Shown here piece after piece: positions 213 to 43,632 of a DNA stretch of 64,000 nucleotides; within the stretch, counting starts at the first letter, position 1, and every line of letters begins with the position of its first letter. A program made the translations under genes and the position numbers. The DNA lies in assembly GCA_947570615.1 (NCBI GenBank), contig CANOVJ010000011.1:1-64000 (forward strand). The letters are read 5' to 3'. Below the pieces are notes generated by a model. That model was not told where the DNA came from. It made no database searches and was given only the letters and a program-made list of their open reading frames with translations. Source of the stretch: an uncultured Lachnospiraceae bacterium (lineage in GTDB: Bacteria > Bacillota > Clostridia > Lachnospirales > Lachnospiraceae).

Positions 213-347
213 TCAGTTTTTAATCTGCCTCCCCTCGTGATTCATATGATAGCCTTCCTTATAGATCAGCTCCGAAATGGGCACGAAGGTATAGCCTTCA
301 TTTTTCAGCGTGGCGATCAGGGTGTCCAGGGCCTGAGCCGTAAATTT
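213..347 (-). pseudogene. Stranded 3' end of the polysaccharide deacetylase gene (44 codons)
   Basis: The minus strand encodes KFTAQALDTLIATLKNEG followed by YTFVPISELIYKEGYHMNHE and GRQIKN, then a stop. This is the usual last helix and strand of a NodB-fold (PdaA/PdaB-like) polysaccharide deacetylase. It has no start of its own. Its upstream edge is the prophage attachment core at 349-357, and it continues in frame from residue 248 of the truncated gene at 42862-43632. Excision of the prophage would restore a protein of about 292 residues. As it stands it is probably not translated. Confidence 0.85.
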
Positions 348-380
348 GGCTCCATTGGGTGCCATATAGTTAGTATGTTT
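345..380. other. attL, left prophage attachment site
   Basis: The core GCTCCATTG at 349-357 is repeated exactly at 42890-42898. Host coding sequence lies to the left. The phage half to the right carries GTTAGTATGT (369-378), the inverted complement of ACATACTAAC (42874-42883) in attR. Serine-integrase attP sites typically have such inverted arms around a short core. Confidence 0.85.
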
Positions 381-416
381 TCAATCCACACTCTCCTTCA
401 CTGGGATTGACATGTC

Positions 417-444
417 GCTCCATTGAGCGCCATATAAAGTATGG
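417..444. repeat. Second attachment-like sequence 68 bp inside attL
   Basis: GCTCCATTG recurs at 417-425, followed by GCCATATA and AGTATG with nearly the spacing found in attL (349-378). It lacks the left arm found in attR. It may be a remnant of a second related integration or a duplicated integrase half-site. Confidence 0.55.
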
Positions 445-496
445 AAATAGCTCTTTGTCCATTTTTCATGATTATATCATACTCTTTCAACAGAGA

Positions 497-523
497 AAAG
501 GGCAGCCCTTCTGACCGCCCTTT
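497..523 (-). terminator. Terminator after the lysis genes
   Basis: On the minus strand AAAGGGC (523-517) pairs with GCCCTTT (503-497), followed by TCTC. It begins five bases beyond the endolysin stop codon and would end the late operon just inside attL. Confidence 0.7.
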
Positions 524-527
524 CTTA

Positions 528-1235
528 CTATTGTAAAGCTTTCCATGTTTTCGCGCCCACAATCCCGTCCACAGCCAGTCCATTGTCTGCCTGGAACGCC
601 CTTACAGCTTCCAGCGTTTTTATACCAAAGATTCCATCAATGGTGCCCAGCCCATAGCCTTTAGCTGTAAGGTTCTGTTGCAGGTAGGTGACGTCTGCTC
701 CACGGCTTCCCATTCTGAGAGTAGGCCTGCTGCCGGTCACAATGGTGTCATACTGTGTCAGGTTGTACTGATTGATCTTACTGAGGCAATTCTGGACATA
801 TGTACTGCTTGTACAGTATCCGGCTGACTTGATCGCCTGCATATATGCTTCCGGTGTGGCGGCATTCTTTACACTGGCATATCTGCTCATTGACAGGAAA
901 TCATAGTAACCCTTAAGGCCTGATTCCAGATCGGGGAATACCCGGAAATAATCCGTGATCTGTGTGATCACGCCGACTTTATACTCCTCCCCGGTCTTAA
1001 GCGAGATGGAAGGCCTGCCTTGGCTCAGCCAGTACTGGCCGCATTTCATCCCATGGTAATTGTGGTACTTTTCCGCCAGCTGGCTAATGCCGCTCGCGCT
1101 CTTTCCGGACAGTGATTCCTGCAGAGCCTGTGCAATTGCAGGGGAAACCACCTTATACTCTCTGGTCTTTGCTTCCCTCTGCAGGATGGGAGCGATCTGC
1201 CCGATAAATCCACTGATCTGTGTTTTTGTTGCCAT
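528..1235 (-). CDS. Phage endolysin: glucosaminidase plus peptidoglycan-binding domain
   Basis: A peptidoglycan hydrolase for lysis at the end of the phage cycle. Residues about 5-165 resemble the GH73 N-acetylglucosaminidase family, with a candidate catalytic Glu near residue 40 in QALQESLSG. Residues about 170-235 form a PG_binding_1 repeat (RMGSRGADVTYLQQNL, FGIKTLEAVRAFQ). No signal peptide is visible, so export should depend on the holin encoded just upstream. I chose the ATG at 1235 because a GGAAGGTG site lies about 9 bases before it; an in-frame GTG four codons earlier overlaps that site. A strong terminator follows the stop. Confidence 0.85.
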   Translation of the reverse strand: MATKTQISGFIGQIAPILQREAKTREYKVVSPAIAQALQESLSGKSASGISQLAEKYHNYHGMKCGQYWLSQGRPSISLKTGEEYKVGVITQITDYFRVFPDLESGLKGYYDFLSMSRYASVKNAATPEAYMQAIKSAGYCTSSTYVQNCLSKINQYNLTQYDTIVTGSRPTLRMGSRGADVTYLQQNLTAKGYGLGTIDGIFGIKTLEAVRAFQADNGLAVDGIVGAKTWKALQ

Positions 1236-1262
1236 TTCTTTTATCACCTTCCTTCAAATTTT

Positions 1263-1463
1263 TTAATATCCTCCAAATCCGCCCTGTATTATGGTTTCGC
1301 CCCGGATCTGCTCCTCCACGCCTGCCGGCTCCAGAGTCTCAATGTCCAGTCTCCCGGTAATGACGCCCCAGGCGGTTACGGCAGGGGCGGCCAGCAGGAA
1401 AAATGAAAGTACCGCCAGAATGATTCCTGCAAGTATCCAGTCTATCCTGTCCTGATTTTTCAT
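1263..1463 (-). CDS. Small single-pass membrane protein of the lysis cassette
   Basis: A 66-residue protein with one long hydrophobic segment (residues about 10-32, ILAGIILAVLSFFLLAAPAV) and an acidic tail. It overlaps the upstream holin gene by 4 bases and precedes the endolysin, so it belongs to the lysis module. It could be an accessory or second holin, or an antiholin. No family is recognised, so the role is inferred from position and topology only. Confidence 0.7.
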   Translation of the reverse strand: MKNQDRIDWILAGIILAVLSFFLLAAPAVTAWGVITGRLDIETLEPAGVEEQIRGETIIQGGFGGY

Positions 1464-1780
1464 ATCCTCTTCTCTTCATTTTTCATGATGTATACCGCGG
1501 ATTCGATCAGTGTTTCAAGCTGTTCATCCGAAATGGATATTTTTTTCTGCAGGAGCTGCTGCCTGATAAACTCTGTCACAATGGCCTTCTTTTCCGGCCC
1601 GGTCTTATCTCCCAGTATTGTCTGCTCCGCCGACCTGACCGCCAGCTCCACCCACCTGATCACCCATTCATACTTCGTGTTCTCTGCCTTCTGCCTGATA
1701 AAGGGTACTGCATATCTCATCACAAGGATGATCAGCAGAATAAGCGCCGCCCTTAAAACCTCAAATAAAATTTCGTTCAT
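1460..1780 (-). CDS. Phage holin, LLH-type
   Basis: A 106-residue protein with an N-terminal membrane segment (residues about 5-25, LFEVLRAALILLIILVMRYA) followed by a charged amphipathic region, the layout of the LLH holin family (Phage_holin_6). Holins form the membrane lesions that release endolysin. It overlaps the genes on both sides by 4 bases, indicating translational coupling. The function is well supported by sequence style and position, although no search was run. Confidence 0.75.
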   Translation of the reverse strand: MNEILFEVLRAALILLIILVMRYAVPFIRQKAENTKYEWVIRWVELAVRSAEQTILGDKTGPEKKAIVTEFIRQQLLQKKISISDEQLETLIESAVYIMKNEEKRI

Positions 1781-2052
1781 ATCTCCATCTCCTCCAGTTC
1801 TTTTAATTTTGAAAAGTCCTTATTCTTCCTGCAGTTTTCCACCTTGGCCTTCCAGACGATAAATCCGGTATGTATACCCAGCTCCGTGAAGGCGGCAGGG
1901 ATCCCGTATACAATAACGGGAAGCTCCGCCACTCCCAGATACCCGCTGATGGCGTTCAGTACAAGGCAGGCCGCCGTGAATATCCATACCGCCCGGAAAT
2001 TGTAGTAATACAGCCTGTCTGAAAAACCGCGCCTTAACAGCATCCTCCCCAT
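1777..2052 (-). CDS. Hypothetical membrane protein upstream of the holin
   Basis: About 91 residues with two hydrophobic stretches (around VWIFTAACLVLNAISGYLG and VIVYGIPAAFTELGIHTGFI) and a highly charged C-terminus (KNKDFSKLKELEEMEI). The ATG at 2052 overlaps the preceding stop (TGAGATG), which suggests reinitiation; a TTG eight codons earlier is the alternative. It sits with the lysis genes and may be an additional holin-like component. No family is recognised. Confidence 0.65.
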   Translation of the reverse strand: MGRMLLRRGFSDRLYYYNFRAVWIFTAACLVLNAISGYLGVAELPVIVYGIPAAFTELGIHTGFIVWKAKVENCRKNKDFSKLKELEEMEI

Positions 2053-2053
2053 C

Positions 2054-2308
2054 TCAGCCACCGCCTGCCCTCTCAAGGTCGTCTATGCGGTGATTGGCCA
2101 CCCTGATTTTTTCATCCTGCAGGGCCGCTGTCTCCTCCAGCCGGTAGGTGCGCTCAATCACGTTATTGTGTTTGTCCACTTTCTCCTCCAGCATCTTAAT
2201 GCGGTACTCGATCAGGTTCCTTGTGGAATTATTCTGATAATGGTTGTTCACCATACATACAATCAGTGTTGCCGCCGATGATATCATTGCCGCTATGACT
2301 GTTTCCAT
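2054..2308 (-). CDS. XhlA-like small membrane/coiled-coil protein
   Basis: An 84-residue protein with one N-terminal membrane helix (ETVIAAMISSAATLIVCMV) followed by a heptad-rich charged segment (residues about 27-80) that should form a coiled coil. This topology is like that of phage XhlA/haemolysin-type lysis accessory proteins. The ATG at 2308 was chosen for its AAGGAGA site nine bases upstream; longer frames reaching 2389 lack a good site. It overlaps the next gene by one stop/start junction. Confidence 0.7.
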   Translation of the reverse strand: METVIAAMISSAATLIVCMVNNHYQNNSTRNLIEYRIKMLEEKVDKHNNVIERTYRLEETAALQDEKIRVANHRIDDLERAGGG

Positions 2309-2345
2309 CTTACCGTCTCCTTTAAATATTTCTCCTTGATCAACT

Positions 2346-2405
2346 TTACGATCTATACAGTGCTCGTCCATCAGGCGCCCTGGCTGCATAATATGTATAT
2401 CCCAT
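2346..2405 (-). CDS. Possible 19-residue peptide MGYTYYAARAPDGRALYRS
   Basis: A very short frame with a strong GGAGG site eight bases before its ATG, in the gap between the XkdX gene and the XhlA-like gene. It could be a translated leader that couples the two modules, or chance. No homologue is known to me. Confidence 0.3.
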   Translation of the reverse strand: MGYTYYAARAPDGRALYRS

Positions 2406-2476
2406 CTGTCCTGCCTCCTCTTTATACTCCGGCTGGCTAATATTGGTCCTTCATATTTGATTAGTTATTACACTCT

Positions 2477-2617
2477 CTATTCAAATTCTTTTCCGGTAAT
2501 TTCCTCATACTCCTCTGCGGTTATCCATTTCCCCACTGCCGACGCCACCTTTGTAAGGCTCCAGAGTTTTCTGTCGTAATACTGTTTTACTTTACTGAAA
2601 TTCTTTGAATAATTCAT
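2477..2617 (-). CDS. xkdX: XkdX family small phage protein
   Basis: A 46-residue protein (MNYSKNFSKVKQYYDRKLWS ... WITAEEYEEITGKEFE). The spacing of tyrosine, tryptophan and the WITxEEYxxITG motif is the signature of the XkdX family, found after tail-fibre genes of many Firmicutes siphophages and PBSX. Its molecular role is unknown. It has an excellent AAGGAGG site, starts 14 bases downstream of the preceding gene's stop codon, and sits between tail and lysis genes as usual. Confidence 0.85.
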   Translation of the reverse strand: MNYSKNFSKVKQYYDRKLWSLTKVASAVGKWITAEEYEEITGKEFE

Positions 2618-2628
2618 AACCCGCCTCC

Positions 2629-3039
2629 TTACAGTTCAATTCCGGTTTCCATAGCCAGATAATCAATATTGGCTGTGTTCTGCGCGGCTTGGCCGGCCAC
2701 AGATACCAGCATGGAAACCCTTTTCATGGTAACAATACATTTATCTGCTGTTTCTTCTGCAAATCCGCTTTCTGTCGTCGGATCCTCCGCGGTATAGTTG
2801 ATGTCTGTAACCACATCTGGAGTAAATACCACGTCATGCAGTTTGGTAAATCCTGCGTATCCACGGATAAGATCAAGGCCTGCATAATACCTCATAACAG
2901 AAGTTCTGGTACTCTCCTGGAATTTCCCAATAACAGAATTTACATCAGAAGATTCAATTGTAATGGCCAGTGTGTCTCCTGATTGTGTAACTCCTGTAAT
3001 CTGAATCTCCGTGTTGTCTGAAAATACAATTTTGTTCAT
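2629..3039 (-). CDS. Hypothetical phage tail-region protein
   Basis: A 136-residue soluble protein starting MNKIVFSDNTEIQITGVTQ, with no membrane segment and an acidic composition. Similar proteins accompany XkdX in clostridial phages, where they are thought to belong to the tail tip or fibre, but no function is established. Its ribosome-binding site (AGAAAGGAA) lies just outside the left end of the putative invertible segment at 3073, so it would stay in place if that segment flips. Confidence 0.7.
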   Translation of the reverse strand: MNKIVFSDNTEIQITGVTQSGDTLAITIESSDVNSVIGKFQESTRTSVMRYYAGLDLIRGYAGFTKLHDVVFTPDVVTDINYTAEDPTTESGFAEETADKCIVTMKRVSMLVSVAGQAAQNTANIDYLAMETGIEL

Positions 3040-3071
3040 TTTTTTATTTCCTTTCTTATAATTTTGGTTGG

Positions 3072-3521
3072 CTAAATAATAATTTAACCGCTCTGGGTGG
3101 CTTCGTCCCTGTCATTGACCCCGCCACTGGAAAAATCACCGGCTACAAAACTGCAGTAGGGGGTGCCGATACAGTGTTCCCTTTTAGTTCCTTCGAGGAA
3201 TTATTAAGCAGTACGATTTACACAAACAGTAACTCTGTAGGAAAGCCTACATATCCTACATCGAACTACCATTTTAATTTCCTTTTTCCTGAGTCCAAAT
3301 ACGCCTTTGTAGGACTACAGGACGGCGGATCAACCAGAATGGTTGATATATTGGATCTGAGGCAGGGAAAAGGAATATGTGTCGCGGGTTCTTTAGTCAG
3401 GCATGTGTCCGGGGACGCTACGTCTCTGGGAGGTTTTAAAAGCATTTCCTGGAGCCCGACGAACATATCATATTATTGGAGCGGTAATAATGTAGGGGCT
3501 GTTTATGTACAAACAGTTTAA
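3072..3521 (+). pseudogene. Silent, inverted alternative 3' end of the tail-fibre gene
   Basis: An open plus-strand frame of 149 codons without a plausible start, among genes that all run minus. It reads NNNLTALGGFVPVIDPATGK then ITGYKTAVGGADTVFPF, a motif common in the C-terminal parts of clostridial phage tail proteins, and ends 4 bases before the convergent stop of the expressed tail gene. Its first codons (LNNNLTAL) align with the expressed gene at VNNKLVTQL, and both sides share the block TAAATAATAA in inverted orientation. Inversion would attach this end to the constant N-terminus. Confidence 0.75.
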
Positions 3522-3959
3522 TAAATCAAACCAGATAGACTTTGGCAGTACAAACAAGTACAGCTTTTCCGTAGTTGGCGGCATTTCCTGCCATCAAACT
3601 GTAATTAAGCCCGGAAACAGACAGCAGACCTGTACTTGAGTTGTATGATTTACTTATATTACAAGTACCCGCTGTACTGGCCCCTTCACCTGTTCCTACT
3701 CGGTGATAGGATGCTGTAACATGAATCGAAGTTATTTCTACGATAAAGTCATTGGAATTTAACTTGTTGTAACCACTTATCCCTGCACAGGACACCGATC
3801 CATTACCTGTTATTGTCCCGATTAATTTGGCCCGCCTACCCAATTGTTTTTTTGATGCTGTATCAGCACCCAACTGGACGTAGTATGTTGCACCCGCGCC
3901 GCTCCCTTCCGTAATGAGTTTTACATCATTCGGCAATTGCGTTACTAATTTATTATTTA
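3073..3959. repeat. Putative invertible segment bounded by TAAATAATAA inverted repeats
   Basis: TAAATAATAA occurs at 3073-3082 on the plus strand and at 3959-3950 on the minus strand; including the flanking G, 11 of 12 positions match. Each copy lies at the same point of the reading frame (..NN..) of two convergent tail-fibre 3' ends. Inversion of the 887-bp segment would exchange them in frame. Confidence 0.6.
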
Positions 3960-4164
3960 CCTCCTCAATTCCATCCGCGATTCGTTGCTCCAGATCGTTC
4001 ATATTGGCGGCAGAAAACGCATCTCCCGCCTGTGAAACCGTTCCCTCACTACGTGCCACATCAACTACAATCTGACTGTCCGCAGATCCGGATACTTTGG
4101 TCAGTATCCGTCTCCCTGCAAATTCAGCCAGTCTGTCCTTCCATGTTTTTTGTTGAAATGCCAT
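3526..4164 (-). CDS. Tail fibre / receptor-binding tail protein (currently expressed version)
   Basis: A 212-residue protein. The N-terminal part (residues 1 to about 70, AFQQKTWKDRLAEFAGRRIL ... NMNDLEQRIADGIEEVNN) is the conserved attachment portion seen in clostridial phage tail proteins. The remainder is a Gly/Ser/Thr-rich fibre or receptor-binding region. The ATG at 4164 overlaps the upstream stop (TGATG). The variable part begins at the repeat that also starts the inverted fragment at 3072, suggesting the C-terminus can be swapped. Function is inferred from composition and position. Confidence 0.75.
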   Translation of the reverse strand: MAFQQKTWKDRLAEFAGRRILTKVSGSADSQIVVDVARSEGTVSQAGDAFSAANMNDLEQRIADGIEEVNNKLVTQLPNDVKLITEGSGAGATYYVQLGADTASKKQLGRRAKLIGTITGNGSVSCAGISGYNKLNSNDFIVEITSIHVTASYHRVGTGEGASTAGTCNISKSYNSSTGLLSVSGLNYSLMAGNAANYGKAVLVCTAKVYLV

Positions 4165-4655
4165 CACAAATCACCAATCCCTTCCCCTGCGTATGTTTCT
4201 GATCCGCAGTAATAATAACTGTTCTGCAATCTTACATAAACGTAAAACACATCATGAAGAATCCGTTCTATGTCATTCCATTTCTGGAAAGTATTTAAAG
4301 GCTGATCCGGAACCTGTGGTGTATCCGATAAAACCATCAGAGAATTTTTAATCTTCTGCACATTGTTCCTGATCCGCTGGTAATCACTTACTCTCGGGAT
4401 ATCTCCATACTCCCATCCCTTCACGCTGACCGTGGCGGCGACCAGCCCGCCGATAACCTGTGTGTTGCCTTCCACCCTCTGCAAATCGGACAGGTTAAAT
4501 GCCCCTTTCAGCCCAAGGCTCCCGTTTATGCCGGTACCCCATTCCCGCCTTTCTTTTTCCGTTATGGTGCCGTCAAGATATCTCCTGTTCAGTTCCTTTA
4601 CCCTGTCAACATCTGCCTGTGTACGGTCATAGACAAAACTCAGTCCTCCCACCAT
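4164..4655 (-). CDS. Tail-tip associated protein with C-terminal YAGEGIG motif
   Basis: A 163-residue protein beginning MVGGLSFVYDRTQADVDRVK, a helical N-terminus followed by SDYQRIRNNVQKIKNSL, a pattern I associate with clostridial phage proteins next to tail fibres. It ends SYYYCGSETYAGEGIGDL, matching motifs in the neighbouring 593-residue protein. It is coupled to both neighbours by overlapping stop/start codons. It is likely a structural component of the tail tip; no enzymatic motif is seen. Confidence 0.7.
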   Translation of the reverse strand: MVGGLSFVYDRTQADVDRVKELNRRYLDGTITEKERREWGTGINGSLGLKGAFNLSDLQRVEGNTQVIGGLVAATVSVKGWEYGDIPRVSDYQRIRNNVQKIKNSLMVLSDTPQVPDQPLNTFQKWNDIERILHDVFYVYVRLQNSYYYCGSETYAGEGIGDL

Positions 4656-6436
4656 CAGATGACACCACCCAACCCTTCATCCGCATACAGCTCACCATCT
4701 GCAAAATAGTAATCCGTAACTGCCTTAAAATACCCGCGACACTTTGACGTACTTATGAACCCGCCAGTCAGATCCGTGGAAAGGGATTCCACCGCTGCCA
4801 CGAAGTTTGCGTGCTCCAGCACCGTATTCTCAATTTCTGCCCAGTCCCCCGCTTTTTCATCTTCCGCAAGGTGCTTTGTCCTGATGATCTGCTGTAGCTG
4901 ATAATAATCAAGGATATTGTCTGCCACACGCTTTGCGGCTTCAAAGTCAAGCAGCGTGCCCGAAAACGTCTTTGTGTTCCGCACCTCACCTGACTTTATA
5001 TGCTCAATGCTGGACAGCACAGCTAATTCCTCACCTATATATTTCCGTCCGGATATTATGACTTCGGACGCGTTTGTGACCTTAAGCACCACATAATACG
5101 GCATCTGCTCCAATATCTGCCCCGCGCTTGCTGTCATGTTCGCTGCAGGATTTGTCAGCTGTATTGTATGGACACCCGCCCCATAAGTGCCCTTGGTTAT
5201 CTGGCTCACATTAGTATCAAGCCGCCATGTTTTATACTTTACGTTCACGTCAGATACGTAGTGATCCGTCTTCAGGGTCGTGGAAAACTTGCGGTGCCTT
5301 TCCACTTTTACGGTCACATTCCTCGTGTTCTTGTGTATCTCGATGCCAACCCTGTGCGAAGTGTTTATGATGCTCCCGCAGGCAAAGAGAACTTCCCGAA
5401 GCGCCTTCTGGCAGGACTGGATTTTCAGTGTCCCATACAGCGGTGTGTTTGCCGTTTCCTCATCCACCTCATAGTCCGTGATGCCGGCCGCCGCCATGAT
5501 CCCATCAATGATCCCGCCAGCAAGGTCACCGTCATAGATCCTGCCATCCTTAAAATCTGTGTTAGTCAGCATCCCCTTATAATCGATCGCAGAAATCCTG
5601 CTGATATTTTTTGTGGTGCTGTTTGTGTCAAGGAAGAAAGTCCCCAAAGGTATCTTTTTTCCCTTCACCATTTCATAAGGAAACATCTGCTGACGCTTCT
5701 GGAAAGTTCTGTGCAGCCCGTCAGCGTTTCCGATATTAAAATCATCTTCCCTGTCAACGAAATCGAAAGTGAGCTTGTCCGTCTTGATCTTATCGCCTAT
5801 TGGATCAGTGTCGTTCACCAGCTTCCCGGATTTGATGGAATCTGCGCCCCACGTAATTTTAGTGCCGTACTCAATATACTGAAGTTTCGCATTATGGTAA
5901 GGCAGGGCACGCAGGAATACGATCTCAATCCGCCCATACTCCTCGACCTGATTTTTGCAGAAATAAATCGGTGAATCCGGGTAAAAGTGCTTTCGTGATT
6001 TCAGGATCCCGAAAAGGTCGTACCATATGATTTCTATCTCCAGCGGATAATCCCTCAGGAAGTAAAGGGTAATCCCATAGCTGGTATGGTTTTCTGTAAA
6101 TTGCACCGTCACAGACTGTCTGGGGCTGATTTCTTCAACGGCCCCGCCCAGCTCATCCCCGGCATACATTTCGCCGCCGGCATACTGGTAATTACTGTCT
6201 GACTGGATAAAATTTCTGGAATAATACACAAGATTATCCGGCTCATCCGGAAACTCCTCCATGCTCCCGTCCAGCACAAAGAAATTATGCTCCAGCGTCC
6301 CATAATCGGGGGCAGAGATGCTTTTCTTAATCCTGCTTAAATCAGCAAATGAAGAATTGCTTTCCGTACTCTCCTGCGCATCCTGTAATGCAGTTGTGTC
6401 AAACAGATCATACTCAACAAAAAATTCTGTCTTCAT
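4655..6436 (-). CDS. Tail-associated / baseplate hub protein
   Basis: A 593-residue protein placed where siphophages encode the tail tip hub (Tal or gp44-like protein). The middle (residues about 190-420) has features of a phage tail hub fold, including GKKIPLGTFFLDTNSTTKNI and ISAIDYKGMLTNTDFKDG. Residues about 84-98 and the last 15 residues contain two related motifs (GGEMYAGDELGG and DGELYADEGLGG). No peptidoglycan-hydrolase motif is obvious. The start overlaps the preceding gene by 4 bases. Assignment rests on order, size and partial motif resemblance. Confidence 0.75.
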   Translation of the reverse strand: MKTEFFVEYDLFDTTALQDAQESTESNSSFADLSRIKKSISAPDYGTLEHNFFVLDGSMEEFPDEPDNLVYYSRNFIQSDSNYQYAGGEMYAGDELGGAVEEISPRQSVTVQFTENHTSYGITLYFLRDYPLEIEIIWYDLFGILKSRKHFYPDSPIYFCKNQVEEYGRIEIVFLRALPYHNAKLQYIEYGTKITWGADSIKSGKLVNDTDPIGDKIKTDKLTFDFVDREDDFNIGNADGLHRTFQKRQQMFPYEMVKGKKIPLGTFFLDTNSTTKNISRISAIDYKGMLTNTDFKDGRIYDGDLAGGIIDGIMAAAGITDYEVDEETANTPLYGTLKIQSCQKALREVLFACGSIINTSHRVGIEIHKNTRNVTVKVERHRKFSTTLKTDHYVSDVNVKYKTWRLDTNVSQITKGTYGAGVHTIQLTNPAANMTASAGQILEQMPYYVVLKVTNASEVIISGRKYIGEELAVLSSIEHIKSGEVRNTKTFSGTLLDFEAAKRVADNILDYYQLQQIIRTKHLAEDEKAGDWAEIENTVLEHANFVAAVESLSTDLTGGFISTSKCRGYFKAVTDYYFADGELYADEGLGGVI

Positions 6437-6825
6437 GGTTTCCTCGCCGGGCTCCTTGCCGTGAACTTGCAGGTAAATCCTGTAAATCTGACATCGCCAT
6501 CCAATATTTTCTCGTATTCATCCGAAACGCTGGATATGTATGCCCTGAAAACGTAATAACCATTGGCGGTAGGAATGGAAATATCATGAAACTCTGCAGG
6601 TTCCGTCATTTTATCCCAGAACACCTCATAATCCGTATCGCCAAATTCATCACTGCTCCCCACTGTCAGGGTGTAATTGTAATACACCCCGATCAGCTCC
6701 CTCTCAAGATCACCGGACTCTACACGTTCCGCGTATTTATCAAGAAAATTCGCATTCCGTTTCAGAGACACCATGGGAATATCAAAATAAGTATTACCTA
6801 CTTTTATACCCTTCTCAAATTTCAT
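6433..6825 (-). CDS. Phage tail protein, distal-tail (Dit) position
   Basis: A 130-residue protein (MKFEKGIKVGNTYFDIPMVS) between tape measure and hub, where a distal-tail component is usual, but shorter than typical Dit proteins. The composition is beta-rich with no membrane segments. The ATG at 6825 overlaps the tape-measure stop (TGATG); a GTG one codon earlier is less likely. Probably structural. The exact family is not recognised. Confidence 0.65.
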   Translation of the reverse strand: MKFEKGIKVGNTYFDIPMVSLKRNANFLDKYAERVESGDLERELIGVYYNYTLTVGSSDEFGDTDYEVFWDKMTEPAEFHDISIPTANGYYVFRAYISSVSDEYEKILDGDVRFTGFTCKFTARSPARKP

Positions 6826-36946: not shown

Positions 36947-37007
36947 AGCCTACCCTCCTGCTTAAGTCTATGTCTGACTGGTTGTACAACTTTCTGTTCA
37001 ATGAAAA

Positions 37008-37199
37008 CTAACCTTCATTTATAGTGACAGATCTGGTGTCAGGATCATACGCCAATATCAGAGTGTCATTATTCCTGTCTGTCAGTTCTCCTTTATTACC
37101 TTCCATGGAAAGTGAAAAACACTCCATGGCAAAGCCCTGTTCAAGAAGCCATCTTCTGATTGCGTATTCAGCTATGGTCTTTGCTCCTTTGATCGCCAT
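37008..37199 (-). CDS. Hypothetical phage protein, 63 residues
   Basis: MAIKGAKTIAEYAIRRWLLE then QGFAMECFSLSMEGNKGELT, helical N-terminus with a C-terminal beta hairpin (DTLILAYDPDTRSVTINEG). The ATG at 37199 lies nine bases after AAGGAGG; a GTG four codons upstream overlaps that site. Small early gene of unknown role just downstream of the 219-bp inverted-repeat element. Confidence 0.65.
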   Translation of the reverse strand: MAIKGAKTIAEYAIRRWLLEQGFAMECFSLSMEGNKGELTDRNNDTLILAYDPDTRSVTINEG

Positions 37200-37225
37200 T
37201 AAAACTTTCACCTCCTTTTTCCATC

Positions 37226-37444
37226 AGCAGCCCTTTTATAAAAATTGTCTATTGTCAGCACCCTGTAAAACTTCGGGAAGGTCTTGCCCTATCAGATTTC
37301 GCCCTAAAATCTGCAAACCTGCCAGATGACAAAGGGATTTTTCAGACGTTGGTTCCCTTAAACCGCCACCCCGTTTTCTCATTAAAAACCGGGCGAAAAC
37401 CTGTTGACCAGCACACGATAGACAATGTTTATAAAAGGACTGCT
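37226..37444. repeat. 219-bp element bounded by 27-bp inverted repeats; candidate structured RNA or MITE-like unit
   Basis: The arms 37226-37252 and 37418-37444 match at 25 of 27 positions when one is reversed and complemented (both contain CCTTTTATAAA and ATTGTCTAT). Between them are further hairpins, such as CAGATTT/AAATCTG (37293-37313) and CCCG..CGGG around 37369-37393. No open frame of note. This occupies the only large gene-free gap of the early region. It may be a non-coding RNA, a mobile miniature element or a replication structure. Confidence 0.6.
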
Positions 37445-37528
37445 ACTGTTTATTTTCCGTCACTCTGCATTTCACGGGCTTGTGACCGTCCACGGCTGCA
37501 TTAACGGCGGGCCTTGCGGCCCTTATGG
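37445..37528. other. Gene-free stretch with a GGGCC/GGCCC hairpin
   Basis: The gap between the inverted-repeat element and the next gene holds GGGCCTTGCGGCCC at 37514-37527 (stem GGGCC/GGCCC with a short loop). It may be the terminator or the 5' part of the adjacent RNA element. Nothing else is recognised. Confidence 0.35.
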
Positions 37529-37705
37529 TCAGTCAACAAATGTGTGGCGGGAAAAATCATAAATCCCTATTGTTAAGTGACCGCTGTAAATTACTTTGCA
37601 CCTGACCTGATCGACAGGTTCCAGTTCAATGTGCTCTGTGATGTACCCTAAGGATTTCATTGCTGTTCTGACTTCCTGAAACTGCTTTTCTGTATATTTC
37701 ATCAT
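37529..37705 (-). CDS. Hypothetical phage protein, 58 residues
   Basis: MMKYTEKQFQEVRTAMKSLG then YITEHIELEPVDQVRCKVIY, ending SGHLTIGIYDFSRHTFVD. A helix followed by a small beta sheet. Two adjacent ATGs with GGGGGA just upstream; a longer frame starting at the previous gene's stop is possible. No family recognised. Confidence 0.6.
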   Translation of the reverse strand: MMKYTEKQFQEVRTAMKSLGYITEHIELEPVDQVRCKVIYSGHLTIGIYDFSRHTFVD

Positions 37706-37719
37706 GCTTCCCCCGTCCT

Positions 37720-37935
37720 TTACCATCCAGCCATAGCGGCCTGTTCACGTTCCTCTGCCTTGTAAAGCCTGAATGTCTGCAGGGCCTTTGTTTTTGTCAT
37801 TGCCCCAAACTCTTTTACATAAAAATCAAATTGCCGCTGATCCCAGCACTCCACCACAACATCCCCGCCCCTGCTGTAGTTTTCTTTCGCCAGTGCAATA
37901 AATTCTTCATAGGTCAACGCTTTCCCTCTTGCCAT
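37720..37935 (-). CDS. Hypothetical phage protein, 71 residues
   Basis: MARGKALTYEEFIALAKENY then SRGGDVVVECWDQRQFDFYV, ending in a helix (TFRLYKAEEREQAAMAGW). Proteins with this TYEEFIxLAxxNYxxGGDxxxECW pattern are common and uncharacterised in clostridial phages. AGAAAGGAA site before the ATG; the stop abuts the next start. Confidence 0.7.
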   Translation of the reverse strand: MARGKALTYEEFIALAKENYSRGGDVVVECWDQRQFDFYVKEFGAMTKTKALQTFRLYKAEEREQAAMAGW

Positions 37936-37983
37936 AATTTCCTTCTTTCTCCCCGGCTTTACCCTGCCGGGAAAGGGATAGCG

Positions 37984-38202
37984 TCATGCTATTTGAAACT
38001 CTGTTCTTCCAACCTTAATGGTTTTGATGATAATGTCGCTGTCATGGGGTACGCGCGGCAAAACCTGCTGTTCAAATTTTTTTATCATACCGCCCACATC
38101 GTAAGTTTCAAAATCCTTCTCGCTTATATTTATTGAATAAGTCCACTGCTTTCTGCTCTGGAGCCTCCTGTTTACTTCTATAAACCTGACCTTTGCTTTC
38201 AT
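37984..38202 (-). CDS. Hypothetical basic phage protein
   Basis: 72 residues (MKAKVRFIEVNRRLQSRKQW), mixed alpha/beta with many basic residues in the first third. ATG at 38202 chosen for its AGGACGCAGGA site; the frame extends 25 codons further without a good site. It is divergent from the plus-strand gene at 38308. Confidence 0.6.
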   Translation of the reverse strand: MKAKVRFIEVNRRLQSRKQWTYSINISEKDFETYDVGGMIKKFEQQVLPRVPHDSDIIIKTIKVGRTEFQIA

Positions 38203-38254
38203 TTTCCTGCGTCCTCTCCGATATTTGTTGAAAACATATCCTTTGTCTCCTATA

Positions 38255-38266
38255 CTGTAAGTACAG
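38255..38266. promoter_or_regulatory. CTGTA-N2-TACAG palindrome in a divergent intergenic region
   Basis: The symmetric site CTGTAAGTACAG lies between the minus gene starting at 38202 and the plus gene starting at 38308. It could be an operator for a phage regulator; no second copy was noticed. Confidence 0.35.
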
Positions 38267-38307
38267 GCCACTGCCATGACCGAGTACAGAAGAAAGGAGA
38301 ATTCCCT

Positions 38308-38607
38308 ATGGCATTGATTGATGACACGCTGAGGTTCCTGGGGCCGCCCTATTGTATCCGGAGTATAGACCTTGAGCCTGTGATATACCGCTCAACAGGG
38401 CAATACGAATTCGAGGTTTCCGGTCTTCACGACAAGAGAATGGACTGCACCCTCTATGTCTGGCGTACATCTCCGCAAGAGCTGGTTGGCATTTACAGCG
38501 GTATCAGGACTATGGAAGACCTGAAGGACCTCATGGGCTACTGCGCGGTCAGATACCAAAATCTTCTTTCCCGAATCCAGATCGAACGCGAAGACCGAAC
38601 AGTATGA
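38308..38607 (+). CDS. Plus-strand hypothetical phage protein, 99 residues
   Basis: MALIDDTLRFLGPPYCIRSI then DLEPVIYRSTGQYEFEVSGL; beta-rich, with a helical C-terminus (MEDLKDLMGYCAVRYQNLLS). It has a clear AGAAAGGAG site and is transcribed against all its neighbours, so it probably has its own promoter and could be expressed from the prophage. No family recognised. Its last 59 bases overlap the end of the minus gene 38549-38728. Confidence 0.65.
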   Translation: MALIDDTLRFLGPPYCIRSIDLEPVIYRSTGQYEFEVSGLHDKRMDCTLYVWRTSPQELVGIYSGIRTMEDLKDLMGYCAVRYQNLLSRIQIEREDRTV

Positions 38608-38728
38608 CTGCCAGGTCCTGTCTGGAAAGGCTTTTTTCTGTAACCAGCCTTTCCAGGCGGCTCTCTTCAGCTTCGTCTTCTGTAAGCGGCTCAAAACGCC
38701 TCCAGTCCATCTTTGCATCTGTTACCAT
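38549..38728 (-). CDS. Hypothetical acidic phage protein, 59 residues
   Basis: MVTDAKMDWRRFEPLTEDEA then EESRLERLVTEKSLSRQDLA, ending VILFGLRVRSGFGKEDFGI. The first 40 residues look like a real acidic helical protein, and AAAGGGAAG precedes the ATG. The 3' third overlaps the convergent gene at 38308-38607. It fills an otherwise empty gap in the minus operon. Confidence 0.5.
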   Translation of the reverse strand: MVTDAKMDWRRFEPLTEDEAEESRLERLVTEKSLSRQDLAVILFGLRVRSGFGKEDFGI

Positions 38729-38922
38729 CTTCCCTTTACCTCCTCTCCGATATTTCCGGAATCAGCTTCCAAAGATCCGTCGCGCCCGATTCTGACTAAT
38801 GCGTAGCGCGTGCTATACGGCTCACGCACTAAGACAAACTTATCGGAAGGCTCCAGGTTCTTATTGATGATCTGGAGTTCTTTTCTGATCGCCACCAGCT
38901 CATGGTATATTTTCCTCAGCAC
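38722..38922 (-). CDS. Hypothetical phage protein downstream of Cro
   Basis: About 66 residues (LRKIYHELVAIRKELQIINK), an N-terminal coiled-coil helix and a beta-rich second half. Probably begins at GTG 38922, seven bases after AGGAGG; a GTG three codons earlier is inside that site. The coding start overlaps the 3' end of the Cro-like gene, and its leader is a near copy of the leader of that gene. Confidence 0.6.
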   Translation of the reverse strand: MLRKIYHELVAIRKELQIINKNLEPSDKFVLVREPYSTRYALVRIGRDGSLEADSGNIGEEVKGRW

Positions 38923-39160
38923 CTCTCTCACCTCCTTGTGTTGATTTTAATTCACTATCTGTGGCAAAAAAAATGGCATCTCTTTCATCTCTAGATAAAT
39001 TTAGCACTTGAGACAAAGCACTTATTTCCGAAATTTTAAAATCACCTGTTTTCATGCGATTATACAATGTTTCACGTAGAATACCGCTTTTTTCTGCCAC
39101 AAATGTTATTGACATTCCATGGTTTGATATGCATTCTTTTAATGCATCTACATTTGTCAT
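38900..39160 (-). CDS. Cro-like helix-turn-helix regulator
   Basis: 86 residues. The HTH at about 10-45 (ISNHGMSITFVAEKSGILRE then TLYNRMKTGDF) is of the Cro/C1 type that lets lytic genes be expressed and counters the divergent repressor. Transcribed from a near-consensus promoter (TTGACA-N17-TATAGT on the minus strand, 39216-39188). AGGAGG site before the ATG. Acts on the shared operator region at 39161-39284. Confidence 0.85.
   Translation of the reverse strand: MTNVDALKECISNHGMSITFVAEKSGILRETLYNRMKTGDFKISEISALSQVLNLSRDERDAIFFATDSELKSTQGGERGAEENIP
38929..38964 (-). repeat. Near copy of the Cro leader inside the Cro 3' end
   Basis: The stretch 38929-38964 matches 39165-39197, apart from a two-base insertion and a few substitutions (both contain TTCACTAT, TTGATTT and CACCTCCTTG on the plus strand). 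It supplies the ribosome-binding site of the next gene and one half operator. This is the same gene-boundary duplication theme seen at 23.4-25.8 kb. Confidence 0.6.
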
Positions 39161-39284
39161 CCTACACCTCCTTGTTGATTTACATTCACTATATCACTCG
39201 TGTGAATTATTGTCAACATTTTTAAATAATTTTGTTGAATATTTTTCACATTCATGTTACTATTTCATTATGGGAGGTGATTAA
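39161..39284. promoter_or_regulatory. Divergent cI/cro promoter and operator region
   Basis: Minus strand: TTGACA (39216-39211), 17 bp, TATAGT (39193-39188) drives the Cro-like gene. Plus strand: TTGAAT (39235-39240), 17 bp, TACTAT (39258-39263) drives the repressor. ATTCAC (39184-39189) and GTGAAT (39202-39207) form a dyad over the Cro promoter, and TTCAC recurs at 39245-39249, suggesting repressor half-sites. Confidence 0.7.
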
Positions 39285-39902
39285 ATGCTTGAATTATATA
39301 AAAACATAAAACGTTTACGAGAAGAAAAAGGACTTTCCCAAGATGCCCTTGCAAAGCTAACCGGATACTCTGACCGTTCTTCTATTACTAAAATTGAAAA
39401 AGGGCAAGTTGATTTACAACAATCTAAAATAGAGTTATTTGCCAAGGCTTTAGGTACTACCTCACGGGACCTTGTCGGAGATATGGATTCTTCATTGCCT
39501 GTGAAAAAGGGAATAGCTATCAATGTTCTTGGTCGTGTAGCTGCTGGCATTCCTATTGAAGCCATAGAAAACATAATTGATACAGAAGAAATATCAGAGG
39601 AAATGGCAAAAACCGGAGATTTTTTTGGGCTGCAAATACATGGCGACAGTATGGAACCCAAAATATCTGAAGGGGATATAGTCATAGTTCGGAAACAGGA
39701 AGATGCCGAGAATGGTCAGATTATTATTGCCACTGTCAACGGAACTGATGCTACTTGTAAGAGACTTCGAAAATATCGTGACGGAATAGAACTTATATCA
39801 AATAATCCGTCTTACTCTCCAATGTTTTTCAGTAATGAAGAAATTGAAAGTAAGCCTGTGAAAATTATTGGCCGAGTTGTCGAGTTACGATCGAAATTCT
39901 AA
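39285..39902 (+). CDS. CI-like phage repressor, LexA/S24 peptidase type
   Basis: 205 residues. N-terminal HTH_3 domain (residues about 5-60, IKRLREEKGLSQDALAKLTG) and C-terminal S24 peptidase-like domain. The self-cleavage elements are present: Ala87-Gly88 (RVAAGIP), Ser122 (HGDSMEP) and Lys159 (ATCKRL). RecA-dependent cleavage after DNA damage would therefore induce the prophage, which is well known for this family. GGAGG site five bases upstream. Divergent from the Cro-like gene. Confidence 0.93.
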   Translation: MLELYKNIKRLREEKGLSQDALAKLTGYSDRSSITKIEKGQVDLQQSKIELFAKALGTTSRDLVGDMDSSLPVKKGIAINVLGRVAAGIPIEAIENIIDTEEISEEMAKTGDFFGLQIHGDSMEPKISEGDIVIVRKQEDAENGQIIIATVNGTDATCKRLRKYRDGIELISNNPSYSPMFFSNEEIESKPVKIIGRVVELRSKF

Positions 39903-39933
39903 TACATAAATCTTACTAAGAAAAGAAAACGAT

Positions 39934-40059
39934 ATGTTACTTATAAATTGTCCGGAATGCAGAAAAGAAATTAATTTCAGGGGTTGGAATAGCATCATTT
40001 TTAATAGATTATTTACTACTCGTATTACTTTAACAAAACTCAACCGGAAGGGAGAATAA
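39934..40059 (+). CDS. 41-residue protein with half a zinc ribbon
   Basis: MLLINCPECRKEINFRGWNS then IIFNRLFTTRITLTKLNRKG. It begins with one CPEC knuckle followed by a basic hydrophobic stretch, much like the first part of the following zinc-ribbon gene but lacking the second knuckle. It may be a degenerate relative of that gene. The ribosome-binding site (AAGAAAAG) is moderate. Confidence 0.4.
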   Translation: MLLINCPECRKEINFRGWNSIIFNRLFTTRITLTKLNRKGE

Positions 40060-40063
40060 GAAA

Positions 40064-40543
40064 ATGGCACTAATTTATTGCAGAGAATGCGGGAAGGAAA
40101 TTTCTGATAAGGCTGAAAAATGCCCCCACTGTGGATTTCCATTACAAGCAAAACCACCTGTAAAGATTAAAAAAGAAAAGGGATTCTGGTCTGCTGGAAG
40201 ATTAACAATAGGAATAATCTCTATGGTGTTATTCTTTTTAATCAGTTTACAGTCATGCGCAGTGGGGCTTGGCAATGCTATTACAGAAAATGGCTCTACA
40301 AGCGGAACATCCGGGGCACTTTTAGCTTTAATGATGTTAATTGCTGGAATAGTAGGAGTTTGCACTAGAAATTCTAAGAGCAAAGGCGGAGCTATCACTT
40401 CAACGATTTTCTATTTATTTGGAGCAGTATCATCAATGGGACCTCAGGATACTTATGGTGATTTGCCTATATGGGGAATTGTATCGTTTTGTTTTGGTAT
40501 TGTATTTTTAATATCCGCGATTAAAACTCAAAAAGAAAGATAA
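40064..40543 (+). CDS. Zinc-ribbon membrane protein
   Basis: 159 residues. N-terminal zinc ribbon (YCRECGKEISDKAEKCPHCG, residues 5-24), a basic linker, then about four membrane segments (LTIGIISMVLFFLISLQ; LLALMMLIAGIVGVC; SSMGPQD-flanked TIFYLFGAV; IWGIVSFCFGIVFLISAI). It sits on the plus strand between repressor and integrase, the usual place for genes expressed in the lysogen. A superinfection-exclusion role is possible but unproven. Confidence 0.75.
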   Translation: MALIYCRECGKEISDKAEKCPHCGFPLQAKPPVKIKKEKGFWSAGRLTIGIISMVLFFLISLQSCAVGLGNAITENGSTSGTSGALLALMMLIAGIVGVCTRNSKSKGGAITSTIFYLFGAVSSMGPQDTYGDLPIWGIVSFCFGIVFLISAIKTQKER

Positions 40544-40545
40544 TT

Positions 40546-40743
40546 ATGGGGCTATCTAATAAATATGCAAAAATTCTGGGAGCCGATGAAGACGAGCTTC
40601 TTGAAATGGTTAACGAGCTGACCGAGGAAGAAATAAAAGAGCTTTTGACACTACTTATATCAGCCAGAAACAGGGAATGTAAACTTGAAATAGAGCTTAT
40701 TAAGATGAAGCCCCATTGCTACACCAGCACCCTGCCAGCTTAA
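40546..40743 (+). CDS. Hypothetical helical protein, 65 residues
   Basis: MGLSNKYAKILGADEDELLE then MVNELTEEEIKELLTLLISA, an acidic helical protein with no signature. Follows the membrane protein by 2 bases and is probably co-transcribed. Ribosome-binding site weak (AAGAAAG). Confidence 0.5.
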   Translation: MGLSNKYAKILGADEDELLEMVNELTEEEIKELLTLLISARNRECKLEIELIKMKPHCYTSTLPA

Positions 40744-40759
40744 CCGAAAGGAGGCCAAT

Positions 40760-41302
40760 ATGGCATTACATCAGGAAAAAACTTATACAATTGAAGACAT
40801 CTACGCCCTCCCGGACGGCCAGCGGGCGGAGTTGATCGACGGCCAGATTTACGACATGGCACCGCCAAACCGGATCCACCAGAGGCTCGTCAACCGTCTT
40901 TCACAGACAATTACAAACCACATTGATGCGAATCACGGCGACTGCGAAGTATACCCTGCCCCATTCGCTGTTTTCCTGAATGAGGATGACAGGAATTATG
41001 TGGAGCCTGACATTTCTGTGGTCTGTGACCAGAATAAGCTGAATGACAAAGGGTGCAACGGGGCTCCGGACTGGATTATTGAGATCGTTTCGCCGAGTAC
41101 GGAACGCATGGACTACGGAATTAAGCTTTTCAAATACCGTTCTGCAGGCGTCCGGGAATATTGGATCGTCAATCCAAAGACCCGCACTGTAAATGTTTTT
41201 GATTTTGAACATGACCAGGAATCCGCACAATACAGCTTTGATGATGAAGTCCCTGTCTGCATTTATTCTGATCTGACTATCGGGATTTCTGGTCTGCTTT
41301 AA
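40760..41302 (+). CDS. Uma2-family putative restriction endonuclease
   Basis: 180 residues. The full Uma2/DUF820 pattern is visible: YTIEDIYALPDGQRAELIDG near the N-terminus, YVEPDISVVCDQ (D near residue 83), PDWIIEIVSPSTERMD (E near 103) and IKLFKYRSAGVREYWIVNPK (K near 117), a PD-(D/E)XK nuclease core. The family is common but of uncertain role. Its position in a prophage suggests a lysogeny-expressed function, possibly defence (inference). AAAGGAGG site upstream. Confidence 0.88.
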   Translation: MALHQEKTYTIEDIYALPDGQRAELIDGQIYDMAPPNRIHQRLVNRLSQTITNHIDANHGDCEVYPAPFAVFLNEDDRNYVEPDISVVCDQNKLNDKGCNGAPDWIIEIVSPSTERMDYGIKLFKYRSAGVREYWIVNPKTRTVNVFDFEHDQESAQYSFDDEVPVCIYSDLTIGISGLL

Positions 41303-41310
41303 ATAAAATA

Positions 41311-41340
41311 AAACCGTCCCTGCGCCAACAGGAACGGTTT
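41311..41340 (+). terminator. Terminator after the Uma2 gene
   Basis: AAACCGT..CCTG pairs with CAGG..ACGGTTT around a short loop, beginning 8 bases beyond the stop. A rich A tract precedes it, so it can act in both directions. It isolates the lysogeny genes from the integrase. Confidence 0.75.
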
Positions 41341-41472
41341 CAACATCCCCGAAGGTGATGCTTACGAGTACACAGTTATAGTATCATCTTCAGGAGCAGC
41401 CTGCAAGCGTTAAATGCGCTGGCTGTTATTTTTATACCTTAAAATCCATAGATTGTACTGGAGGATGATGCT

Positions 41473-42870
41473 ATGAACAAAATACCAAGATGCGCTATTT
41501 ATATCCGTGTTTCTTCCGCGGAACAGGTAATGCACGGGAAAAGCCTTGATGCCCAGCTTCGCTTTCTGACAGATTATGCCGCAAACAAAGGCTGGAAGCT
41601 GATCGGGCACTTTGCCGATGAGGGAAAAACAGCCAGAAAAGAACTGAAACGTCGGAAGGCCATCAAAGAACTTTTAGAGTGCGTTAAGCGTGATGAGGTT
41701 GATATTATCCTGTTCTGGAAGATGGACCGCTGGTTTCGAAACGTGGCTGATTTTTATAAAGTCCAGGATATCCTTGACGCCCATAACTGTAAATGGGTGG
41801 CCGCCGCTGAGCCCGGCATGAACCTTGAGACGCGCGAAGGCCGGCTTAATGTAAATATTATGCTCTCCATTAATCAGAATGAGACCGACACTACCAGTGA
41901 ACGGATCAGGTTTGTCAATGAATCTTCTGTCCGTCAGGGCAAGGCCATTTTCGGGACGCCATCAGTACCCTTTGGCTATATGGTCCAGCTGACAGACGGG
42001 GTAAAGCGCATTGTAAAGGATCCGGACAGAGAACCCCTGGTAAATGAAATATTTGAATACTATTTCGCCCACCAGAGCAAGAACGGCACGGTCAAATACA
42101 TGAATGAAAAATATGGAGAAGTGCTGACGATCAATGTTATGCTTAATATGTGTGTCAACACCTTTTATTATGGTTACTATCGTGGTAATGATAATTACTG
42201 TCCCGCTTATATCACCCGTGAACAGTATGAGTGGATGCAGGATATCAATCACAGAAATATAAAGGTCAAACGGCAACAGCACAAACAGGATCCCTATCTG
42301 TTCACCGGATTATTTATATGCCCGCTCTGTGGCCGGCGCCTGGCGTCCGCAAGGAAGAAATCAAGAAACGGTGAAAGCTATTACCGCTATTATCGGTGTG
42401 TCAACCATTATTCAAACCGGATTTGTTCTTATGGTAAGGTTCTTAATGAAAATACTTCCGAGGCTTTCTTACTCAGTAATATAACGACCATCTATGAAAA
42501 CAAAAAAATTATTATCGAGCAGATTGCTGATCATAAAGCCTTACCCAAAAAGACTGATGTGGAGAAGTATAAAAAGGAATTAGAACGCCTGAATAATATG
42601 TATCAGAAGGGGCGTATCGAAGAAGAACGATATGACTCAGAATACCTGAGAATCAGCACAATTATAAGAGAACAGGAACAGGAAATGTCTTTTGTTCCGG
42701 CTGTGAGGAAGTCTTTTGAAAAAATAGATCAGGCACTTTCCGGAGACTGGATCAATATATACCAGAGCCTTGACCGGGAAAATAAACGGTCTTTCTGGCG
42801 CAGTATCATTGAGAGCATTGAATGTAATGCCGATTCCGGCACTATTAAGACCGTCAATTTTTTACTCTGA
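41473..42870 (+). CDS. Large serine recombinase, the phage integrase
   Basis: 465 residues. N-terminal resolvase domain with catalytic Ser14 in YIRVSSAEQ and the expected Arg-rich motif (FWKMDRWFRN, about 78-87); recombinase domain about 165-270; zinc ribbon with CPLCGRR (about 283) and CVNHYSNRIC (about 312); C-terminal coiled coil (about 350-430). Large serine integrases act on short attP/attB sites, and this gene ends four bases before the attR arm. It should both insert the phage into the deacetylase gene and, with a directionality factor, excise it. Confidence 0.93.
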   Translation: MNKIPRCAIYIRVSSAEQVMHGKSLDAQLRFLTDYAANKGWKLIGHFADEGKTARKELKRRKAIKELLECVKRDEVDIILFWKMDRWFRNVADFYKVQDILDAHNCKWVAAAEPGMNLETREGRLNVNIMLSINQNETDTTSERIRFVNESSVRQGKAIFGTPSVPFGYMVQLTDGVKRIVKDPDREPLVNEIFEYYFAHQSKNGTVKYMNEKYGEVLTINVMLNMCVNTFYYGYYRGNDNYCPAYITREQYEWMQDINHRNIKVKRQQHKQDPYLFTGLFICPLCGRRLASARKKSRNGESYYRYYRCVNHYSNRICSYGKVLNENTSEAFLLSNITTIYENKKIIIEQIADHKALPKKTDVEKYKKELERLNNMYQKGRIEEERYDSEYLRISTIIREQEQEMSFVPAVRKSFEKIDQALSGDWINIYQSLDRENKRSFWRSIIESIECNADSGTIKTVNFLL

Positions 42871-43632
42871 TTTACATACTAACCATAGCGCTCCATTGTG
42901 GCACAGAATGATGCTTCCATTCCCCAGGTGTTTGTGTTTCGTCACGGTTTTGATGATGGAGTCCACACCGTAGTCCTTCCAGTCAAGAGAATCCACGTCC
43001 CACTGGATTGTATAGTACCCGCAGTCCCTGGCCACATTCACCACCGCGTTGTCATAATCCCCGTAGGGTGGTCGGAACAGGAACATTTCATAACCGGTCA
43101 GCTCCTGCACCTTTGTATGTACCTTCATGAGCTCTTCCTTCTTCTCCCCGTCCGAAAGCTGGCTCATGTTTTTGTGGTTCTCGCTGTGATTGCCCAGGTC
43201 GTGTCCTGCCGCCAGGATGGCCTTAACATCGTCGGGATAGCTCTCCACCCACCCCCCTGTCATAAAAAACGTCACGTGTACATCCTGTTTTTCCAGGATC
43301 TCCAGGATCTTACCGGTGTCCTCATTCCCCCACGCCGCGTCGAAGCTCAGCGCAACCTTCTTCTCCGGCGTATCCACGCAGTAGATGGGCAGCTCGCGGC
43401 CGTCCACGCTGCTGCTCACCGTGATCCCCGCCCCGGCGCTCACCAGCACGCCACGCAGCAGGGCAAAGGCGGTCAGCAGGAACACGCCGTATTTCACTCC
43501 TGTCAGGAGCCTTTGCCTGGCATACTCCTCCCTGCTCTGTCCGCTTTCTCTCCCTGGGAATTTTCCGGGAGATACTCTCCCAAAAGAGAAAGGTCTGATC
43601 TTCTGTCTGAGTTTTTCTATGTATCCTTTCAT
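42862..43632 (-). pseudogene. Polysaccharide deacetylase (PdaB-like), 3' end cut off by the prophage
   Basis: 256 codons: 248 host residues followed by eight foreign ones (LWLVCKSE) encoded by attR. A cytoplasmic basic N-terminus and one membrane anchor (about 45-65) precede a NodB domain with SFDAAWGNEDT, HSENHKN (metal histidines), RPPYGDY and ILCHNGA. It lacks the last 44 residues, which remain at 213-347. The fold closest in motif pattern is spore PdaB/PdaA, enzymes that remove acetyl groups from peptidoglycan. The catalytic residues remain, but without the final helix and strand the protein is probably unstable. Confidence 0.9.
42874..42898. other. attR, right prophage attachment site
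   Basis: Core GCTCCATTG at 42890-42898 with the phage arm ACATACTAAC (42874-42883) on its left and host deacetylase sequence on its right. Together with attL it rebuilds an attP whose arms are inverted complements, and an attB inside the deacetylase gene. Confidence 0.85.

Follow-up and report, generated by a model that had tools for sequence, protein, structure and literature searches.

In the genome of an uncultured Lachnospiraceae bacterium (assembly GCA_947570615.1), a polysaccharide deacetylase gene of the host is interrupted by a prophage that encodes a large serine recombinase (LSR), and comparison with related genomes confirmed that, at the sequence level, excision would restore a single frame of 292 amino acids (aa). 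The prophage lies in what we call the window, the whole stretch of 64,000 nucleotides (nt) that was analysed (contig CANOVJ010000011.1, positions 1 to 64,000 of the forward strand). We consider it probable, as the best explanation of the data, that this sporulation deacetylase, a probable enzyme of the spore wall, serves LSR elements as a common insertion target and would be reassembled by excision in the mother cell.

The 9-bp core GCTCCATTG was found as an exact match at both ends of the prophage (Table 1); a direct-repeat search over the entire window had not returned it, the core being shorter than the length setting. The deacetylase is encoded on the minus strand; it starts at 43632, breaks at the right core, resumes at the left core and stops at 213-215. 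Its N-terminal part reads ..SIILCHNGA up to the core and is followed by 8 residues coded by the phage, the unjoined open reading frame (ORF, 42862-43632, 256 aa) ending at a stop within phage sequence, and the C-terminal part resumes with KFTAQALDTLIATLKN.. after the core. Scripted joining of the two flanks across the core gave the single open frame of 292 aa. A natural uninterrupted homologue (in G023; genomes and loci carry our own G and L labels) keeps the same frame over the junction (..ILCHNGAKYTAQALDTL..), indicating that the restored frame is not a product of chance. An empty site was present in G013, where the window flanks (84% DNA identity) adjoin and overlap by exactly the 9 core bases (L066 5028-5036). 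The contig begins at window base 1 and the left flank is just 348 bp long. An earlier note on this DNA had proposed a site-specific LSR prophage interrupting a gene, with exact in-frame restoration of about 292 codons, and both proposals were borne out by the LSR domains and PHROG integrase match, the cores at both ends and the uninterrupted G023 and G013. A third core copy (417-425) was observed within the prophage, 68 bp inside its left end, in a stretch with phage-arm-like sequence (417-446) that is perhaps the trace of an earlier integration.

The protein matched the polysaccharide deacetylase family PF01522 (123.1 bits vs. a gathering score of 23.1, E 8.5e-36). Its designation as PdaB-like held in part: TIGR02764 (PdaB) was the closest NCBI family, and this hidden Markov model matched both pieces in the window genome (profile positions 1-159 and 159-191), but its cut-off of 237.4 bits was missed by the truncated protein (181) and by the natural whole protein (223). 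B. subtilis likewise fell below the TIGR02764 cut-off in the genome search.

Next, the N-terminal part was searched in 60 genomes (the window's own included), and then the natural whole gene in the 37 genomes of the genus, which belongs to Lachnospiraceae; one of these is Parablautia muri and many are metagenome bins. The gene was split in 21 genomes and whole in 14; one genome had only a paralogue (G060) and one no close match (G015). The interruption in the window, an LSR prophage in a sporulation-linked gene, is thus not a single case. Both parts of the gene were found in 20 of the 21 split genomes (the first part only in G019), and an LSR gene lay within about 0.35 kb of a break in 19 of the 21, the distance being up to about 2.3 kb in the other two, G006 and G008. 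We placed 22 junctions from 19 genomes on gene coordinates, 20 in register and two (G002, G006) read by eye, and they clustered at five positions (A-E in Table 1). As the gene coordinates continue over the 20 in-register junctions, excision would keep the frame. Two insertions were present in one gene in G018, G030 and G027. Element size ranged from 2.3 to 84 kb where both junctions share one contig, and the window's is the one among the measured elements whose phage nature is shown. Identical runs in class D are 3-5 nt long, two being chance triplets, and the D core is approximate; the two copies of the class E core in G020 differ from each other by two mismatches; and the G012 N-terminal part (55% identity) was read by eye.

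Table 1. Features of the window (window coordinates) and insertion sites in the deacetylase gene (gene coordinates).
Feature	Position	Strand	Remarks
Deacetylase C-terminal part and core	213..357	-	44 codons and stop after the core
Left attachment core GCTCCATTG	349..357	+	exact match
Prophage between the cores, about 42.5 kb	358..42889		G+C 0.479 vs. right flank 0.556
Phage endolysin (glucosaminidase and peptidoglycan-binding)	528..1247	-	domain matches
Tail tape measure protein	6825..10412	-	protein scan
Major head protein	13743..14768	-	protein scan
Minor head protein	15856..17634	-	protein scan
Portal protein	17661..19052	-	protein scan
Terminase large subunit	19061..20404	-	protein scan
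Primase-helicase	29182..31614	-	protein scan
DNA polymerase	31626..33590	-	protein scan
Helix-turn-helix and S24 peptidase protein, probable phage repressor	39285..39902	+	domains; role inferred
LSR, 465 aa, insertion class E	41473..42870	+	antisense to deacetylase; Resolvase, zinc ribbon and Recombinase domains; PHROG integrase
Right attachment core GCTCCATTG	42890..42898	+	exact match
Deacetylase N-terminal part	42890..43632	-	248 codons of host origin, with the last one in common with the core; ORF runs on to 42862; PF01522
Deacetylase sigma-E-like promoter	43665..43694	-	ACATATG, 15 nt, CATAAACT; its end lies 32 nt upstream of the start codon
Site A	near nt 269-279		FDAAWGN codons; G002, G029, G028, G021, G022, G006, G017, G018, G030; also G012, G019 first part
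Site C	nt 352-356		TGGWV; G001, G027, G030
Site B	nt 394-398		before HSENH; G014, G025, G008, G027
Site D	near nt 610-617		DSLDW; G003, G033, G005, G018
Site E	nt 705-713		LCHNG; window, G020

A phylogeny was built from 36 LSRs, of which 31 come from the genus and five from other genera (the G030 class A LSR is left out, and long branches were flagged). In it, class A formed one group (14 rows, support 92/99), as did each of classes C, D and E; class B fell into three LSR lineages and a single stray row on a long branch. This indicates that LSRs of different lineages reached one gene, each lineage at a site of its own. The Resolvase, Recombinase and zinc ribbon domains were present in the window LSR and in one LSR each of classes A-D, the zinc ribbon of the class D example being slightly below its cut-off. 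The window LSR gene ends 19 bases from the core, and its product shares 80% aa identity with the LSR at the same site in G020. LSRs are common in the genus (374 PF07508 matches in the 37 genomes). A conserved ORF of 48-79 aa directly upstream of the LSR, present in nine of the ten class A elements examined, is a candidate directionality factor; none was identified in the window phage.

The link to sporulation was analysed in a family sample that took a single genome from each genus, 120 in all, with a completeness of 90% or more. Of these, 53 had the deacetylase (E <= 1e-38) and 82 had SpoIVA (E <= 1e-20); all 53 were within the 82, and the deacetylase was found in 0 of the 38 genomes without SpoIVA (Fisher p 2.9e-13, lists compared by eye). 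In the genus, SpoIVA matched in 37 of 37 genomes, above the cut-off in 36, the remaining one being cut by a contig end. Promoters were compared in 28 alleles (18 split and 10 whole); 35 genomes have the gene, and 27 of them contributed alleles. All 28 had two boxes 15 nt apart, one resembling (A/G)CATATG and the other CATAAACTG, the first box being more variable than the second. These boxes resemble the sigma-E consensus. The polysaccharide deacetylases CD3257, CD3248 and CD1319 of C. difficile are reported to be sigma-E-controlled (PMC3789822). The deacetylase is most likely transcribed under sigma-E control in the mother cell. The sporulation link of the intact homologue, which the earlier note had left as a point to check, was supported: in the family sample the gene occurred only in SpoIVA-bearing genomes, and a sigma-E-like promoter preceded all 28 alleles examined. 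The sigma-K-type gene was uninterrupted from profile position ~24 on in 34 of the 37 genomes (none above the NCBI cut-off), indicating that the target in this genus is not sigK.

Outside the genus, six of the 52 other matched genomes of the family sample looked incomplete at the deacetylase. A class A break with a nearby LSR was present in G150, G106, G082 and G079, the last having a class D break too; no LSR was found near the incomplete gene in G167 and G127.

There were no stops in the recovered codons of 20 split genes (258-282 of 282 codons recovered), and the median ratio of nonsynonymous to synonymous substitution rates (dN/dS) in the C-terminal region was 0.033 between split genes and 0.024 between intact ones. 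Two sister species, G028 and G029 (the latter P. muri D42-62), have in common a collinear 12-kb class A element with ten ORF pairs (3077 codons). The synonymous rate (dS) was 0.96 [0.85-1.05] in the element and 1.09 [0.77-1.78] in the deacetylase, and this match indicates that the element has most likely been in place since G028 and G029 parted. The dN/dS of their split gene was 0.033 [0.016-0.058] over aa 25-282 and 0.017 over aa 91-282; by these rates, it is under strong purifying selection. The first 90 codons evolve faster (dN/dS 0.157 in this pair; median 0.174 in whole genes, codons 25-89). The class A break parts the first catalytic motif from the others. Selection on both parts of the gene while it is split makes reassembly in vivo the most likely outcome, and we conclude that the split deacetylase is probably reassembled. 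Sister alleles on the gene tree, G012 and G018, may be a second inherited pair; their elements share a chemoreceptor-like ORF. Vertical inheritance as the rule was rejected on the movement of the LSRs, the low LSR dS of G022/G017 and the scatter of the splits, with G028/G029 as the exception.

We propose that the deacetylase would be transcribed by sigma-E in the sporulating mother cell, where the LSR and a directionality factor would excise the element (in one genome, invert it). As the mother cell dies, losing the element there would carry no cost and would restore the gene, and the forespore would retain the element. Induction of the window prophage would restore the deacetylase too. A more far-reaching version, which we advance tentatively and rate at a little below even, describes a DNA-spliced gene: LSR elements of varied lineages, up to two per gene, would sit at or near the catalytic motifs and all be excised in the mother cell ahead of enzyme synthesis, some having shrunk to ~2-4 kb with little but the recombinase, one strain perhaps using an inversion switch, and the spore program acting as a refuge that selects LSRs for this gene.

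Several results weigh against reassembly in the mother cell. The window's assembly held only the attL and attR forms, and no excised attB or attP forms. Many insertions look recent or horizontally moved: LSR dS was 0.20 between G022 and G017 vs. a saturated host gene, and LSR identity reached 90% across genera. An unbroken reading of the gene is therefore weak evidence in many genomes, and the selection argument rests on a single species pair, G028/G029. Upstream of the LSR or its operon, 21 of 25 stretches were unremarkable for a mother-cell-like promoter, those of both class E LSRs included; in the other four, no more than 15 of 200 shuffles reached the observed score (G022 3, B_G025 5, G017 7, C_G001 15). 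Of the sigma control that the earlier note had asked to look for, a sigma-E-like promoter was present before the deacetylase (28 of 28 alleles examined); mother-cell control of the window recombinase found no support, its best upstream match being equalled by 73 of 200 shuffles. The class E LSR is antisense to the deacetylase, which precludes read-through from the deacetylase promoter. A mother-cell promoter before LSRs was rejected as a general claim by this 25-stretch scan.

The same promoter inconsistency would be expected under plain lysogeny or parasitism, in which LSRs use the conserved DNA of catalytic motifs, loss of the gene is tolerated and excision happens at induction or transfer and not at sporulation. 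This explanation would also account for elements that cross species and genera, for a window element resembling a complete phage, and for insertions scattered over the gene tree (at least 11 changes of the split state; split labels clustered no more than shuffled ones, 321 of 500 shuffles being as low). Conserved target genes shared by LSRs are described elsewhere (PMC10083194). We nevertheless regard lysogeny alone as unlikely. The insertion common to G028 and G029 is old, yet the split gene has a dN/dS of 0.033; the promoter is retained in 18 split alleles; and extra copies of the gene are mostly fragments, with a stop in the second copy of G035, whereas the 20 split main copies are without stops.

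For class E, the truncation might leave a working enzyme and a nearly silent prophage. The break falls after the ILCHN motif, and the 256-aa product has all five NodB motifs. However, 12 residues beyond the break are invariant among 22 natural homologues, the alignment of solved relatives extends through this region (6hm9, for example, reaches query residue 278), and classes A-D, in which the break precedes the last motif, would be left unexplained; we hold this explanation to be improbable. An assembly or binning artefact, with elements wrongly joined to the gene, is hardly credible. Many genomes are bins and five of the 20 with both parts found have these on different contigs (G020, G017, G001, G003, G033), but in the other 15 a single contig spans both junctions of one element or more, and independent genomes, the cultured P. 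muri D42-62 and 1xD8-48 among them, show the same positions and class-specific LSRs. Reassembly of the deacetylase by mother-cell excision remains our preferred explanation.

Other arrangements of the gene were observed. In G021 (isolate 1xD8-48; L118 2693-6901), the N- and C-terminal parts face each other with class A att-like arms, and these facing arms indicate that recombination would restore the gene via an inversion of ~2.6 kb, not an excision. Partial extra deacetylase copies were present in eight genomes, near the main copy in six (L038, L042/L119, L060/L117, L070, L113, L114, L116, L118). G035 has a whole gene and, in tandem, the second copy with the stop; a second copy in G019 ends after FRPPY next to another LSR. 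A longer paralogue of the deacetylase domain was found in 12 of the 37 genus genomes (L125, L126 and ten others), and its N-terminus resembles a lipoprotein signal in the copies read. No paralogue of that kind was listed for the window genome. Backup by the paralogue was rejected as the cause of the splits (five of 21 split vs. six of 14 whole genomes, p 0.28).

The window prophage is complete-looking from its gene content (Table 1); among 20 proteins scanned, it also has matches to scaffold and exonuclease. Besides the LSR at the edge, a tyrosine-integrase-like ORF lies inside the prophage (21987-23015). An 18-nt block (minus strand TTAAACTTTAGCGGAGGT), holding a stop and a ribosome-site-like end, occurs seven times between 23860 and 25776, spaced among small phage genes, and 18-nt tandem repeats lie within a 170-aa phage ORF (24107-24250), a longer relative of which (242 aa) is present in the G020 element. 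The attP pattern gave 0 matches in viral contigs, and the window LSR had two relatives there at 45-46%; one class A LSR, one class D LSR and the deacetylase gave none, which rules out close relatives only. Three LSR genes stand side by side in class B elements (L043, L044, L050). Element cargo included an Mrr-type restriction endonuclease (L058 9016-10014), a chemoreceptor (L045 764-2164) and an AraC regulator with sugar-isomerase-like and oxidoreductase genes (L040 9870-12896).

Sporulation genes interrupted by such elements are known as a kind; what is new here is the deacetylase as target, the five sites, the several LSR lineages and the scale of a whole genus. PMC5595907, PMC4191935 and PMC10747680 name sigK, spsM, spoVFB, spoVR, gerE and yabG, and the word deacetylase is absent from the main texts of these papers. 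No report of an interrupted deacetylase was recognised by title or abstract start in the open-access literature searched, subscription journals being mostly outside this search. The cases of sporulation-timed gene reassembly that these papers name are few and each concerns one element in one gene, whereas in more than half of this gut genus a single spore-linked gene is split, with five or more LSR lineages involved. Comparative work can thus test why LSR elements choose mother-cell genes. Some members are in culture (P. muri D42-62 and isolate 1xD8-48), and the elements provide a natural set of LSR/att pairs with known attB. The splits would also explain the broken annotation of the deacetylase gene.

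As with skin in sigK (B. subtilis, C. difficile and others), an LSR element splits a gene here and excision would restore it; unlike skin, which has one site, the elements occupy several sites in a deacetylase, and the sigma-K-type gene is whole in 34 of 37 genomes. SPbeta in spsM is, like the window element, an LSR prophage in a spore-envelope gene (PMC4191935); its developmental excision was shown, whereas the window offers another gene and another phage, known from sequence only. The non-phage element gin in gerE has three serine recombinases and a 9-bp core (PMC5595907), and class B also has three LSRs; in gin, however, the target is gerE and girC lies apart from girA-girB, whereas the class B LSR genes are adjacent. 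Likewise, yin in yabG (PMC10747680), vfbin in spoVFB and vrin in spoVR are intervening elements in mother-cell genes, one element per gene as far as described, whereas the deacetylase is common to five or more LSR lineages. Magnesium chelatase and prolyl isomerase are each the target of many LSR clusters (PMC10083194), a convergence also seen here; those targets have no sporulation link in the accessible text, whereas the deacetylase is a sporulation-linked gene entered at five sites.

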